Source of the DNA: Candidatus Brocadia sp. | GTDB taxonomy: Bacteria > Planctomycetota > Brocadiia > Brocadiales > Brocadiaceae | Direction: 5' to 3' | Length of the DNA: 64,000 nt | Assembly: GCA_021646415.1 (NCBI GenBank) | Contig: SOEU01000006.1 | Location: 1 to 64,000, forward strand | Shown: positions 55,234-61,467 of the stretch, piece by piece | Numbering within the stretch: position 1 is the stretch's first letter | How the letters are laid out: each line of letters opens with the position of its first letter | Notes under the pieces: model-generated | What the model saw: only the letters and a program-made list of their open reading frames with translations | Databases searched by the model: none | Told to the model about the DNA's origin: nothing | Position numbers and translations under genes: made by a program

Positions 55234-56448
55234 TCAGTGCATTGCAGGTGCTACATTTCGGTGTGCATTTGTCAGGGTTTTTTCTTCCATAAATGAAAGA
55301 CACATGAGACAAACGAGGGACACGAAGATATACCCGAGAGAATAATTGTTGGTATAATCTTTAATTGTGCCTAAAATTATAGGGAGAAAGAAACCACCGA
55401 GGCCGCCTGCTGCACCTACCAGCCCCCCCACTGCCCCCGTATCTTTTGGAAAGTATTCTGCCACGAGTTTGTAGACAACACCATTGCCAATGCCGAGACA
55501 AGTTCCCATAACATAGAACACCACAAGTGAGGTTGCCAGTGATACGTTTAAATTGAGGAATACCGCTATGACAAGCACAATTACCGTAAGAAGCACCATT
55601 ATTTTTCTTCCATTGAATCTGTCACCGAGATATCCCCCCAGAATTCGGGTAAATGAAGAAAGAAAAACAAATATCGATGTGAACCCCCCGGCCTTTACTG
55701 GGGAAATATTATAAAAATCACAAAGATACGATGGCAGCCATATCGAAAAGCACACGAAGAATCCAAAAAACATGAAATAAAACAAGCAAAAGACCCAGGC
55801 CAGCCTGGAAGATTTGAAGAGTTTCAGTTTATCGCTTAGGGTAGAAACCTTAACATTTACTGATTTTGGGGCATTGGAAGTAAAAAACCAGTAGACAAAT
55901 GCCATCAAGAGCAATGGGATTGCATAAATGATAAATGCCTTATTCCATCCCAAAGATTCTGCGATAAAAGGCGCTCCAAAAGCCGAGAGGGCAGTGCCGG
56001 CGTTTCCCACGCCATAAACTCCCAATGCAAAGCCTTGTTTCTTCTTTGGATACCATTCTGAAACATGCGGGATTCCAACCGCGAATGAAGAACCTATTAA
56101 ACCAAAAAATAAGCCACACACTAACAAGAAGCCGTAACTATGCGCAAAACCAGTAAAAAACAGAGATACGGCCCCGAACAGAAGCATAATCGTAAAAACG
56201 AGTCTCCCGCCAAACTTGTCTGTCACAATACCCATAGGAATTTTGGCGAGGGAACCAAGTAATACCGGAGTTGCAAGTAATAATCCTACTGATGTGGAAG
56301 ACAGATTAAATTCTTCCTGAAAATATATTGCCAAAGGGGCAAACAGTGTCCAACCAGCAAAGCATAATGCAAATGCTAAGGTTGCGAGTATCATTACCCT
56401 TGTATTGCCATTAGGTGTTTGTATCGATTCATTTGCTAACATATTCAT
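55234..56448 (-). CDS. narK: Nitrate/nitrite transporter, NarK (MFS, NNP family)
   Basis: 404 residues from MNMLANESIQTPNG; AGGAGA lies 7 bases upstream, and an ATG six codons earlier is less likely. Twelve membrane segments. NNP signatures are GVYGVGNAGTALSAFGAPF (TM5) and the second glycine-rich motif AVGGLVGAAGGLGGFFLP (TM11). It moves nitrate or nitrite across the cell membrane, probably supplying or exporting the substrates of anammox metabolism. A small PAS-domain gene and a haem-binding Cache sensor gene lie upstream on the same strand. Confidence 0.93.
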   Translation of the reverse strand: MNMLANESIQTPNGNTRVMILATLAFALCFAGWTLFAPLAIYFQEEFNLSSTSVGLLLATPVLLGSLAKIPMGIVTDKFGGRLVFTIMLLFGAVSLFFTGFAHSYGFLLVCGLFFGLIGSSFAVGIPHVSEWYPKKKQGFALGVYGVGNAGTALSAFGAPFIAESLGWNKAFIIYAIPLLLMAFVYWFFTSNAPKSVNVKVSTLSDKLKLFKSSRLAWVFCLFYFMFFGFFVCFSIWLPSYLCDFYNISPVKAGGFTSIFVFLSSFTRILGGYLGDRFNGRKIMVLLTVIVLVIAVFLNLNVSLATSLVVFYVMGTCLGIGNGVVYKLVAEYFPKDTGAVGGLVGAAGGLGGFFLPIILGTIKDYTNNYSLGYIFVSLVCLMCLSFMEEKTLTNAHRNVAPAMH

Positions 56449-56541
56449 AAAAAAATCTCCTGACAATGAAAGTTTATCATCTCAGTAAAATAATTGTAGT
56501 TTTCTGATGATAATAAAAAAATATTCCGTTTCAAACGACTG

Positions 56542-56934
56542 TTAACTTGAGTGTACATACTGAAAAAGTATAAATTCGGTCTTTACCTTTAATGGACATT
56601 TATATAATCCTTCCGTGATTAAAGAACTTGTTTGCTTTATGTAAAACAAGGTATCATTTTTTGTCTTCATTAAAGTAAAATAACCATATACTTGCCCATC
56701 CCGAAAGAGCATAGACAATGTCTTTTCATGGTCAAATGGATGCGCATACAATTCTTTGACTTGCTTCCCGATTACATCATCGGCTGAATGAAATCCAAAA
56801 AGCCTTGCACCACTGGTATCAATATGAGTAATGACGCCATCGTAAGAAGGCTCATACTCATACCAACCCTTTGCATCCTTTATATCAGGAAGCATTTTTG
56901 GTACGCTCTTTGTTGATACCTGCAGATTATCCAT
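56542..56934 (-). CDS. Small PAS-domain protein
   Basis: 130 residues, almost entirely one PAS domain: PSYDGVITHIDTSGARLFGF, SADDVIGKQVKELYAHPFD and FRDGQVYGYFTLMKTKNDTL. There is no output domain. It probably senses a ligand or redox state and acts on a partner by protein contact. It lies between narK and the Cache-domain sensor gene, all on the minus strand, with 28 bases to the latter, so it is likely cotranscribed with it. Confidence 0.82.
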   Translation of the reverse strand: MDNLQVSTKSVPKMLPDIKDAKGWYEYEPSYDGVITHIDTSGARLFGFHSADDVIGKQVKELYAHPFDHEKTLSMLFRDGQVYGYFTLMKTKNDTLFYIKQTSSLITEGLYKCPLKVKTEFILFQYVHSS

Positions 56935-56962: not shown

Positions 56963-58375
56963 TTACTGTTTTAATTCCCATGCTATTACTGATTTTTCTG
57001 GAGATTGTTTTGCATTACTTCCGGCAATCTCATTTTCCTTGCTACCTTGAAAAATTGTATTTTCAGATTTTAGGACTGGAAGCTCCTTTTTAAACTTGGA
57101 AATTTTACTCTTGATAAAATCTTCATCCCTCTTTGCTACAAGAGAGCCCAGTGTATTTAATGGATTGTGTATTTTGTATTTTTGCTCCCGAAGATACCCG
57201 CGTTCCTTCCTTAATTCATAACCATCCAGGACTGCTATAATAAATCCGATGGTAACGATAGTTGTTACTCCCAGCAGCGCCTTATGAGGTACCGATAAAT
57301 TTTTGAGCATATAACCGGTACTTAATTTTCTGTAAGTCAATATTGCCATTGCAAATGCCGGAATGATCATCGCTATCATAAGAGACTTTATCATCGAGCT
57401 AATATTATTCAAGGCACCGAAAGCTTCATCGGCATCAATTTCAACAATAAGGCCCATATTGAAATCTTTTAGCCAACTCCATGCACCTACTACTTGTAAT
57501 CCACCGTAATCCCTGTATCCTTCAAGATCATAGCCGGTTGCTTTTTCCGTAATGCACCTTTTTACCCCTCTTGTAATTATTTTGTTCTCAGGGTCTGCGA
57601 CAACATGACATGTTTTACAAGTATCACCGGTATTCCGGATGTGTTCTGAAAATCTTGATTGGGTGATCATGATCCCTTCTTTATTTACCAGATAAGCTTC
57701 TCCGGTCTTTCCCAGTACAACATTTTTCATGGCTTGATTCAGCATCGAGGTGTCCATCCATAACACAACGGCGCCAATTACATCGCGATTTTCACCTTTA
57801 ATGGGATAAGATAAAAACAGGGAAGGTATTTCATGTTCTATGTTATCTTTGTTGCTGTTACTATAAGAATAGTGGATTACATCTGAATAATATGTTTTCC
57901 CATCATATAAGGTTTCCTGAATATTGCGAAATGCCTTTTCCTTCATAATATTTGTGCCGATCATAGATTTTTCAGTTTCTGTTGCCACGTGAATAATACC
58001 TGCACCATCGCAAATGAAAATTCCTCTATATCCATAATCCGCCTTTGTGCATTCCAACTGTGTTTCTAGTCTGAGATATTCATGCTCGTTTTTCCCATTT
58101 ATGAGATTTACAAATTTTTCATCACCATGAATCAATAATGTGCTGAGAATGGAATCTGAAATGGCCCTGGCATGCGATTCCCTTTCGTATCGCAAGAGCA
58201 TGAGCATATCTTTTTGCTTATTGAGTATACCCTCCAGATTATTTTTTATTCCGTATTTTAACTCTGTACTCGCCTTTGGAAATGCAAGCATTCTGAACAA
58301 TACCAGCGGAAGCAGCCCAAAAAAGAGAAACGTAACAATGACTATGACAATTCTTTTTTTTAATATATTCATCAT
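56963..58375 (-). CDS. Membrane Cache-domain sensor with a CXXCH haem c motif
   Basis: 470 residues. TM1 (IVIVIVTFLFFGLLPLVLF), then an extracytoplasmic double-Cache domain (about 35-320; GYRGIFICDGAGIIHVATET, LGKTGEAYLVNKEGIMITQS). Inside it is GDTCKTCHVVADPENK with C253, C256 and H257, a covalent haem c attachment site. Two more TMs follow (SLMIAMIIPAFAMAILTY; ALLGVTTIVTIGFIIAVL), then a short polar C-terminus without kinase, GGDEF or methyl-accepting motifs. It may sense redox state, NO or nitrite and signal through the adjacent PAS protein or another partner; that link is inferred from gene order. Divergent from the PII gene. Confidence 0.85.
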   Translation of the reverse strand: MMNILKKRIVIVIVTFLFFGLLPLVLFRMLAFPKASTELKYGIKNNLEGILNKQKDMLMLLRYERESHARAISDSILSTLLIHGDEKFVNLINGKNEHEYLRLETQLECTKADYGYRGIFICDGAGIIHVATETEKSMIGTNIMKEKAFRNIQETLYDGKTYYSDVIHYSYSNSNKDNIEHEIPSLFLSYPIKGENRDVIGAVVLWMDTSMLNQAMKNVVLGKTGEAYLVNKEGIMITQSRFSEHIRNTGDTCKTCHVVADPENKIITRGVKRCITEKATGYDLEGYRDYGGLQVVGAWSWLKDFNMGLIVEIDADEAFGALNNISSMIKSLMIAMIIPAFAMAILTYRKLSTGYMLKNLSVPHKALLGVTTIVTIGFIIAVLDGYELRKERGYLREQKYKIHNPLNTLGSLVAKRDEDFIKSKISKFKKELPVLKSENTIFQGSKENEIAGSNAKQSPEKSVIAWELKQ

Positions 58376-58705: not shown

Positions 58706-59044
58706 ATGAAAAAAATAGAGGCAATAATCCGGCCCGAAAAATTTGAAGTTGTGAAAGATGCTTTATTAAAGATGGGCTATCCGGGAATGACCGTTACGCA
58801 GGTTAATGGACACGGTAATCAAAAAGGTATAAGTCAGGTATGGCGTGGAAGGAGATTCCGGATTGATCTGCTCTTAAAGCTTAAAATTGAGATAACCGTT
58901 AAGGATATTGATGTAGAAAATATTGTAAATACTATTATCAGCGAATCTCAGACGGGAAGCATTGGCGACGGAAAGATATTCGTCTCTCAGGTGGAAAACG
59001 TTTACCGTGTTCGTACAAAGGAATCAGGCGAAGCCGCAATCTAG
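58706..59044 (+). CDS. PII-family nitrogen regulatory protein with altered T-loop
   Basis: 112 residues, the usual PII length. Landmarks: MKKIEAIIRPEKFEVVKDAL, GMTVTQVNGHGNQKG, KLKIEITVKDIDVENIVNTI and TGSIGDGKIFVSQVENVYRV (the B-loop and C-terminal nucleotide-binding region). In the T-loop, ISQVWRGRRFRIDLLLKLKI replaces the usual TELYRGAEYVVDFLPKVKI, so the uridylylated Tyr51 is Phe and the loop is strongly basic. It can probably bind ATP/ADP and 2-oxoglutarate but not be uridylylated. Its partner is unknown; narK and the Cache sensor are divergent neighbours. Confidence 0.93.
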   Translation: MKKIEAIIRPEKFEVVKDALLKMGYPGMTVTQVNGHGNQKGISQVWRGRRFRIDLLLKLKIEITVKDIDVENIVNTIISESQTGSIGDGKIFVSQVENVYRVRTKESGEAAI

Positions 59045-59082: not shown

Positions 59083-61467
59083 TTATTTATATCGCAGATA
59101 AATTTCGCTGGTTTTTTCATCAACAGTGACATGAAACTTTTCAGAAAGACGTTTTTTTTGTCTAACCCATGATGCCTTCAAAAAAGAAGGACACAGAACG
59201 GACGTAAACACAATTACCATAATAACCGAGGAAAATACAACATCGTCCAATATCCCAATATCCCTGCCTATCCCGGCAAGTATTAAGGTCCCCTCCAGTT
59301 TCATCGCCATCCCTATGCCTATGATTGTGCGGTTTATACGCCTTTCAATCGGGCAAACAGAACAAAACATCTTTCCAATAATGGCGGCGCCTGTTATAGC
59401 AAGACCGAGGAGGACTGCATTCAGATTCAAAAAGCTTTCCAGTTCAACCTGTGCCCCTACCCGAACAAAGAGTATTGGCACAAGGATCGTGTAATACGGT
59501 CGTATTATCCGTTCGATGGCGCCATATTCCATGTAATGGGAATCATTTAACTTTACATTCCGGAGTAATAAACCTGCAACAAAGGCTCCTATTACCGTAT
59601 GGAGTCCGATTGACCCTGACATAAAGGCTAGCAAAAGAGCAGAAATTACCACAATCGGTATATTCAAACCCTCTGTTACTCTTTTTGTTAAAAAATTCCC
59701 GAATCCCTCACCATACCGCAGAATGATTACCAAAATAATGGCAAGGAATGATATAGCTATACCAATGGTAACCAATATGTGTGGTACAGAAGTCCCGCCC
59801 CGAACAACAAACCCACTGATCAGGCCAAAGGTTAGAATTACGATAATTTCGGTAATAACGGCTGCGCCTGTTAAAATCCTGCCCTCAGGGGTATTTATTA
59901 TCTTTAGCTCACCCAGAACTGCCATTAATAATCCCATACCGGTATTACAAAGAAGAATGGCAATAAGAAGTTTTGTGCCGGTAGAGGCATCAGGGAGCAG
60001 AAAATGGCCCACGATAAGCCCAAGCCATGCAGGCACAATAATACCGCCGATGGCTACCAGAAAGGAAGAAGCACCCACCTTCAATAACGCCCTGATGTCA
60101 GTATGAAGACCGGCTGTGAAAAGAAGTAGCAACGTTCCGAAGTATGAAACCATTTTTAAGAACGGCATAGTCCTGAGAAAATGGAAAAAATCCCATCCGG
60201 TAAAGGTAAAGATGTTACCCAAAAGCATCCCTATGATCAGATTTCCAACTACAGCAGGAAGTCGCAACATCCTGGCGATCCATTCTGCTATCTTGGCAGC
60301 AATAAGAGTAATGGCAATGGCAAGGATCACACCGTGAGTTGGATCGTGATGCCATATGTCCCAGGCTGGTTTTGAATCTTCTGCCTCTTTTCCTGTCTCT
60401 GCTGCAGGCTCAGGTGAGGATATTCCTTTTTCAGGTTCTTTTGCCTCTTTAATCAATACGTCTGGACTCCCTTCCTTCGCAATATATGAAGATTCCTCTG
60501 CAGGAGTGAAAGTCGATCTGTTCTCATCTGTAGTCTGGTGGGATTTATCTTCCTTTACAAGTGTTTGAGTTCCCCTTGCCTCTACCGGCAGGGATTCCCT
60601 GCCAGCAATAGTTTCACTCTGATGTTCAGGTGTGGCTATTGCCATTGGTGCGCTTCCTTCTAAAGTTTCTTGCGGGGTCTCTGAAAAAGAGGCACCCGGC
60701 CGGTGGCCTTCGCCACGCAGATATTTTTCCAGATAACCCTTTTTCTCCGTAAAGGCAGGAAATAAGAATTCTTCCCCGGTCAAAGGCGGGATTGGCTTGT
60801 TATCCTCCAGGTACCTTTGAGCCAGGCTTTCATCAACTGCAGGAAACTGTTGTTCAGCGGTAAACGTGGTCGCAGAACCCGGCATAGTTGGTGTTGAACG
60901 GACATCTGTTTTTAGATTGTCAGCAGATATTTCCTTCTCTGTGGCCTTTGATTGGGAATCTTCGGCAACTAGGGTGTCCTCATGGACACCTATTTCCTCC
61001 ACAACAGACGGAGGAGAAGGAGATTTCTGCCCTGTAACAGCCTGGAGAGATGCGTTATTCATAGCCGGGGTTTGTGTGCCCTTCGCCTCTCCGATGAGGG
61101 ATTGTTCTTCGGTAACAGGCGTGGTGGTATCTCCCGCCGGGGAAACAGCCGGGTAGGCAACATTTTCTGCGTCGGTTGAGGGTATCTCTTTCTCCACGAT
61201 AATTTGCGGATGTTCTTGATCTGGAGATTTTTCCGGGAGATATTCTTTCCTTGCAGTCTCCAAATATCTCATTATGTATTTCTTTGGAGAAAGTATTTCC
61301 TCAATAGTAAAAGACCCAGGTTCCTTTTTAATAACAACAGAAGATGGTTTGGAAACTTGAGAAAACGATGAAGTCTCTTTTTCTAATGGAGGTGATCCAA
61401 TTACGACATGGCAATAAAAGGAAATGAAGATGATTCCGAAGATCAGGCTATAATTGAAAGTACGCAT
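59083..61467 (-). CDS. CPA2-type cation/proton antiporter with long N-terminal extension
   Basis: 794 residues. A signal-like N-terminus (RTFNYSLIFGIIFISFYCHV) is followed by about 340 residues of polar, Glu/Pro/Ser/Thr-rich sequence with imperfect internal repeats (EAKGTQTPAM, EARGTQTLVK; EKEIPSTD, EKEISADN). The membrane domain (about 375-770) has twelve segments with the Kef-type signature VVGNLIIGMLLGNIFTF and GLHTVIGAFVAGLLLRNVK. It exchanges K+ or Na+ for protons. The extension would lie outside the cytoplasm, or in the anammoxosome if targeted there, and is atypical for CPA2 proteins. Confidence 0.87.
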   Translation of the reverse strand: MRTFNYSLIFGIIFISFYCHVVIGSPPLEKETSSFSQVSKPSSVVIKKEPGSFTIEEILSPKKYIMRYLETARKEYLPEKSPDQEHPQIIVEKEIPSTDAENVAYPAVSPAGDTTTPVTEEQSLIGEAKGTQTPAMNNASLQAVTGQKSPSPPSVVEEIGVHEDTLVAEDSQSKATEKEISADNLKTDVRSTPTMPGSATTFTAEQQFPAVDESLAQRYLEDNKPIPPLTGEEFLFPAFTEKKGYLEKYLRGEGHRPGASFSETPQETLEGSAPMAIATPEHQSETIAGRESLPVEARGTQTLVKEDKSHQTTDENRSTFTPAEESSYIAKEGSPDVLIKEAKEPEKGISSPEPAAETGKEAEDSKPAWDIWHHDPTHGVILAIAITLIAAKIAEWIARMLRLPAVVGNLIIGMLLGNIFTFTGWDFFHFLRTMPFLKMVSYFGTLLLLFTAGLHTDIRALLKVGASSFLVAIGGIIVPAWLGLIVGHFLLPDASTGTKLLIAILLCNTGMGLLMAVLGELKIINTPEGRILTGAAVITEIIVILTFGLISGFVVRGGTSVPHILVTIGIAISFLAIILVIILRYGEGFGNFLTKRVTEGLNIPIVVISALLLAFMSGSIGLHTVIGAFVAGLLLRNVKLNDSHYMEYGAIERIIRPYYTILVPILFVRVGAQVELESFLNLNAVLLGLAITGAAIIGKMFCSVCPIERRINRTIIGIGMAMKLEGTLILAGIGRDIGILDDVVFSSVIMVIVFTSVLCPSFLKASWVRQKKRLSEKFHVTVDEKTSEIYLRYK

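Follow-up and report, generated by a model that had tools for sequence, protein, structure and literature searches.

The stretch of Candidatus Brocadia sp. DNA that we analysed, 64,000 nucleotides in full and referred to here as the window, raises the question of what a membrane protein with a Cache domain and a CXXCH motif is doing next to a narK gene. An earlier note, made from the letters of the sequence, had proposed a Cache sensor with a haem c site that could form part of a split sensory system for nitrate/nitrite transport. Anammox bacteria have to control nitrite uptake and nitrate export across several membranes, and the copy number of their transporters is high.

The gene in question (56963..58375, minus strand) encodes a double-Cache membrane protein of 470 amino acids, as judged from the open reading frame, Pfam dCache_1, the fold match and the orthologues. 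The dCache_1 family (PF02743) matches residues 106-312 at 43.1 and 44.0 bits, where the curated cut-off is 45. A sequence search of solved structures with this protein returned no significant match. The ectodomain of two AlphaFold models (pLDDT 67 for the whole-protein model and 82 for an ectodomain model from a deeper alignment) resembles solved double-Cache domains, with VIA-align Z scores up to about 20 (20.5 at most). The predicted extracytoplasmic dCache domain covers residues ~30-327 (57395..58288, minus strand) and contains CKTCH at residues 253-257, and so the placing of C253, C256 and H257 in an extracytoplasmic Cache domain stands. Hydropathy predicts three transmembrane segments, residues 9-27, 328-346 and 366-384, the third being beyond the usual two. 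The protein consists of the Cache domain and these three segments only. Pfam finds nothing past residue 345 and no kinase or other output domain anywhere in the protein, which is therefore not a two-component sensor kinase by this measure.

The neighbouring genes are arranged as had been described. A stand-alone PAS protein of 130 amino acids, recognized by Pfam, is encoded 28 bases downstream (56542..56934, minus strand) and is followed by a NarK-family MFS transporter (55234..56466, minus strand; TIGR00886 and MFS_1), for which a TTG start is listed and an ATG occurs slightly downstream. The match to TIGR00886, at 230.9 bits, is below the cut-off of 311.7, yet it is the best match by far. 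A PII gene (58706-59044, plus strand) is divergent from the Cache gene. In the window, the Cache, PAS and NarK genes have no kinase gene among them or next to them.

Three features of genes in the neighbourhood are recorded here in their own right. Residue 75 of the window NarK is a lysine in TM2 (GSLAKIPMG), at a position that presumably corresponds to the substrate-binding Arg89 of E. coli NarK; most of the other NarK proteins in such Cache-PAS-NarK triads have arginine, several have lysine, and every lysine-type triad has CXXCH. The PII protein has phenylalanine at what we take to be the position of Tyr51, the uridylylation site of E. coli GlnB. Finally, a sodium/proton-exchanger-type protein encoded at 59083-61467 (minus strand) is extended at its N-terminus by nearly 390 residues with a high content of Glu, Pro, Ser and Thr.

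Is this gene order peculiar to the window? Related Cache domains are present in all 59 of the Brocadiales-order genomes first searched. Of 62 genomes examined from the order, 32 have full-length relatives of the window protein, and these belong to the Brocadiaceae and the Scalindua family; such relatives are absent from the other families, though most genomes of those families have hydrazine synthase. The comparison covered 40 copies, one from the window and 39 from other loci. The window's own genome has two copies (C6 and C20; L053) that are 71% identical and both have CXXCH. Each of the 40 copies is directly followed by a NarK gene in the same orientation (counting L049, which has a second, higher-scoring NarK nearby), even where the Cache proteins are only 48% identical. 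An intact PAS gene separates the two in 35 copies. At the other five loci (L033, L036, L045, L048 and L049), which belong to several Brocadia species, the PAS gene has decayed or is gone altogether, though several of them still have recognizable traces of it, and Cache and NarK remain neighbours. Thus, the order is shared with other anammox genomes, both Brocadiaceae and Scalindua-type. The PII gene, which had also been counted as part of the set, is adjacent in only three copies (the window, L034 and L035) and must be dropped from it. Outside this group, 17 of 80 other Planctomycetota genomes have related Cache domains and none has CXXCH in that loop. A contig scan for the same CXXCH-containing double Cache, with patterns that reach close relatives only, found anammox-type loci only, and three weak matches came from plasmids.

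The apparent lack of an output domain is best considered together with a second set of operons, built around FocA, the main nitrite transporter. In Brocadia these operons have the order HPP, Cache-HAMP-PAS, small membrane protein, FocA; in other anammox genomes the parts are separate genes, in the order HPP, Cache, PAS-PAS, small protein, FocA (the names FocA and HPP come from our reading of the sequences and from the Kuenenia literature). The nearest relatives of the stand-alone PAS protein in the genome, outside the triads, are PAS domains of three Cache proteins (C7, C8 and C38) that also hold relatives of the window Cache domain. Two of these, C8 and C38, have the organization Cache-HAMP-PAS-PAS-PAS with no kinase, as indicated by Pfam for C38 and its G005 counterpart and by sequence for C8. 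Residues ~358-412 of the window protein (57140..57304, minus strand), which include the third transmembrane segment and a GYxREQ tail, are homologous to the N-terminal part of the small membrane protein (143-177 amino acids) encoded just downstream of the Cache-HAMP-PAS genes. A profile of this segment, run with hmmsearch against 4814 reading frames, found the FocA-operon small proteins (best E 2.7e-8) and no other match outside the triad Cache proteins, and hhalign of the segment against the small protein gave 96.1% (E 3.2e-9). FocA-operon genes are also located close to the narK triad at four loci (L031, L034, L040 and L057).

These homologies imply that one set of parts accompanies FocA/HPP in some operons and NarK in others, that the fusions differ, and that no kinase is attached in any of them. 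The statement that the window protein has no output domain holds as far as Pfam is concerned, but the "missing output", to judge from the homologies, is a rearrangement of parts: a small-protein segment is fused to the Cache protein and the PAS domain is a separate gene. The fusion of Cache and PAS in the Brocadia FocA operons and their separation elsewhere also provide a Rosetta-stone argument for contact between the parts, and Cache, PAS and NarK may form a complex. The idea of a sensory system split over several genes and linked to nitrate/nitrite transport is thus supported, both by the gene order across anammox families and by the tracing of Cache and PAS to the FocA-side set. We tentatively read Cache-PAS-NarK as a kinase-less, transporter-linked sensory unit that acts on NarK itself, giving this a little under an even chance.

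Some of the FocA-side genes have been met before in Kuenenia. The gene focA_2 and the adjoining HPP gene are up-regulated under nitrite limitation (PMC7438415), and the genes kuste3050-3055, listed as a cluster for nitrite transport that includes hypothetical proteins, are co-regulated and go down on NO without nitrite (PMC6423088). Two members listed as hypothetical or unknown, kuste3052 and kuste3054, were detected in the proteome (PMC6423088). Based on gene order, kuste3052-3054 should be the Cache, PAS and small proteins. This cluster resembles the window in having homologous Cache and PAS proteins and small membrane protein next to a nitrogen-oxide transporter; it differs in that FocA replaces NarK, CXXCH is absent and the parts are fused in other ways. 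We found no description in the literature of the anammox Cache-PAS-NarK or FocA operons as sensors.

The expression changes of the focA_2/HPP genes also fit the strongest alternative, which is that Cache and PAS are accessory sensors of an unlinked histidine kinase that controls transcription of nitrogen-oxide genes, the linkage to narK reflecting co-expression only. A putative partner is available: at L070 (8302-12913), L073 (9178-13792) and L075 (1054-5824), a Cache protein of ~1065-1100 amino acids and an NtrC-like response regulator are encoded beside a FocA/Cache/PAS operon, so that signalling could go to transcription. However, the window itself has no kinase gene next to the triad, the Cache-NarK linkage outlasts the loss of PAS, and Kuenenia narK1/2 are expressed constitutively when ammonium or nitrite is limiting (PMC7438415). 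We consider this alternative possible, though not very likely.

A sensory unit acting on NarK, the reading that we prefer, leaves the question of whether the sensor binds haem. Outside the membrane, the CXXCH spacing is the attachment motif for c-type haem. In the window protein the motif (57605..57619, minus strand) lies in module 2 of the double Cache, in the loop that joins strand 2 to strand 3, on the predicted extracytoplasmic side; shuffling the protein's own residues gives CXXCH by chance with a probability of 0.0009. The motif is complete and in the same place in 29 of the 40 copies. In eight copies none of the three residues is present, and three copies are partial, with the histidine alone in two and the first cysteine alone in one. 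On a maximum-likelihood tree, built with the motif columns left out, the motif changed state at least five times. Such a tree cannot by itself separate gain from loss, but remnants in the copies without CXXCH (including FRTFH, WKTSH and CRGSY) together with the loop length favour losses, and the pattern suggests that the motif was lost repeatedly. The expectation that CXXCH is conserved among orthologues is thus borne out in 29 copies and weakened by these losses. The operon persists where the motif is lost, and so the unit must be able to do without haem.

The earlier note had called the haem site inserted, and this does not hold. The loop has 25-26 residues in triad proteins with or without CXXCH, except for one copy from which the motif is deleted, and 28 residues in nearly all of the paralogues, where none of 34 Cache domains has CXXCH. 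The triad loop is, therefore, 2-3 residues shorter rather than longer, and the motif arose within an existing, shortened loop and not as an inserted piece. This loop is among the least certain regions of the structure models (pLDDT ~50).

Could the cysteines work without haem, as a thiol/disulphide redox switch or a metal site? In favour of this, C274 (57554..57556, minus strand), which could form a disulphide with C256 or serve as an axial ligand, never varies: it is found in each of the 40 triad proteins, whether or not they have CXXCH, and in every one of the 48 rows of a wider Cache alignment. Furthermore, all seven FocA-linked Cache domains have cysteines at the C256 and C274 positions and no CXXCH, which means that an older pair of cysteines may have been the starting point for CXXCH. 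Set against this are the exact spacing of the motif, its predicted location and the histidine: wherever both cysteines are kept, in 29 proteins, H257 is kept too, and where they are lost it mostly goes as well, and a simple disulphide needs no histidine. A haem-free role is, therefore, improbable in our judgement. The two cysteines and the histidine are kept together wherever CXXCH is present, all or none save for the three partial remnants, which favours haem c, and we think it likely that haem is covalently attached at this site. For the distal ligand, H168 (57872..57874, minus strand) is a weak candidate: all 29 CXXCH proteins have it and a six-member clade that lost the motif has N or D instead, but on the tree this loss of H168 counts as one event.

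A Cache domain with haem c is described in a 2026 preprint on sCache_heme (PF11845; PMC12889525), and apart from that preprint we found no literature description of a double Cache with CXXCH. The sCache_heme family (DUF3365/Tll0287; GSU0582, GSU0935 and Tll0287) likewise has an extracytoplasmic Cache fold with one CXXCH and is often stand-alone. It is a single Cache, however, with a motif between strands 3 and 4 that is ~99% conserved and is said to derive from an inserted fragment (PMC12889525), whereas the window protein is a double Cache with a motif before strand 3 of module 2 that is conserved in 29 of 40 copies and is not an insertion. We considered whether the window protein could belong to PF11845 and rejected this: there was no match at E values up to 1 (a control, L130, scored 125 bits), and a profile-profile comparison with Brocadiales PF11845 proteins was not significant. 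The window's genome does have two true PF11845 proteins (G000:C11:49433-49927 and G000:C8:9906-10382, in frames of 589 and 813 amino acids), which by our reading of the sequences have CXXCH just ahead of the last Cache-core strand. The different loop, the missing PF11845 match and the true members elsewhere in the genome indicate that the window protein, if it binds haem, represents a different haem-Cache arrangement. A third CXXCH position was seen in L194 (G127:C160), a protein from a planctomycete that resembles protein kinases and has a Cache domain, where CRICH at residue ~111 precedes strand 1 of module 1.

The preprint assigns NO binding to sCache_heme domains tied to signalling modules and redox-like roles to stand-alone ones (PMC12889525). 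These redox roles, with the absence of an output domain here, could mean that the window protein is no sensor and that it is anchored in the membrane to transfer electrons through a single haem on a Cache fold. Against this, its constant association with PAS and transporter genes and its kinship with Cache-HAMP-PAS proteins fit sensing, and copies without the haem motif retain the operon. We regard the electron-transfer explanation as very unlikely.

Two other comparisons are useful. The dCache_1 ectodomains of TlpQ, PctA, Mlp24 and DctB share the fold and the transmembrane anchoring, but these sensors bind small ligands without a cofactor and are fused to a chemoreceptor or kinase output. The Amt-histidine kinase KsAmt5 and the AmtB-GlnK pair (mentioned in PMC7438415) also couple a sensory part to a nitrogen transporter; the Cache-PAS-NarK unit differs in having no kinase and, as noted above, only rarely a PII gene beside it.

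The sensory unit acting on NarK would then work as follows. The Cache protein would span the membrane three times, with its double-Cache ectodomain outside the cytoplasm and a c-type haem on C253, C256 and H257. The ectodomain would sense a nitrogen-oxide or redox signal, the best candidates being NO or the nitrite/redox state. The membrane helices, with the helix of the fused small-protein segment among them, would relay a conformational change to NarK and to the PAS protein in the cytoplasm, and nitrate/nitrite exchange by NarK would be tuned, presumably by direct action. The unit would be a rearranged relative of the FocA set of HPP, Cache(-HAMP-PAS), PAS, small membrane protein and FocA. 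This scheme builds on the gene order, the homology of each part, the small-protein fusion, the position and co-conservation of CXXCH, and the lack of a recognizable kinase domain in the three proteins. A more general version, which we regard as rather unlikely, is that a modular kinase-less complex of Cache, small membrane protein and PAS docks on and gates either FocA/HPP or NarK, and that the Cache of the NarK branch evolved haem c independently, by point changes in an existing loop, as a second type of haem-Cache.

In conclusion, the locus is real and conserved. Its interest lies more in a modular sensor linked to transporters, with haem c probably acquired in the NarK branch, than in an oddity of haem binding. 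Conserved "hypothetical" genes beside the main nitrite transporter and beside NarK now have names and homologies, and the analysis predicts which Cache, PAS, small and transporter proteins belong together in joint tests. If the haem reading is true, a double Cache has haem c in a new position, so that Cache domains would have gained haem more than once, and here the gain would have come by substitution and not by insertion of a cytochrome fragment.
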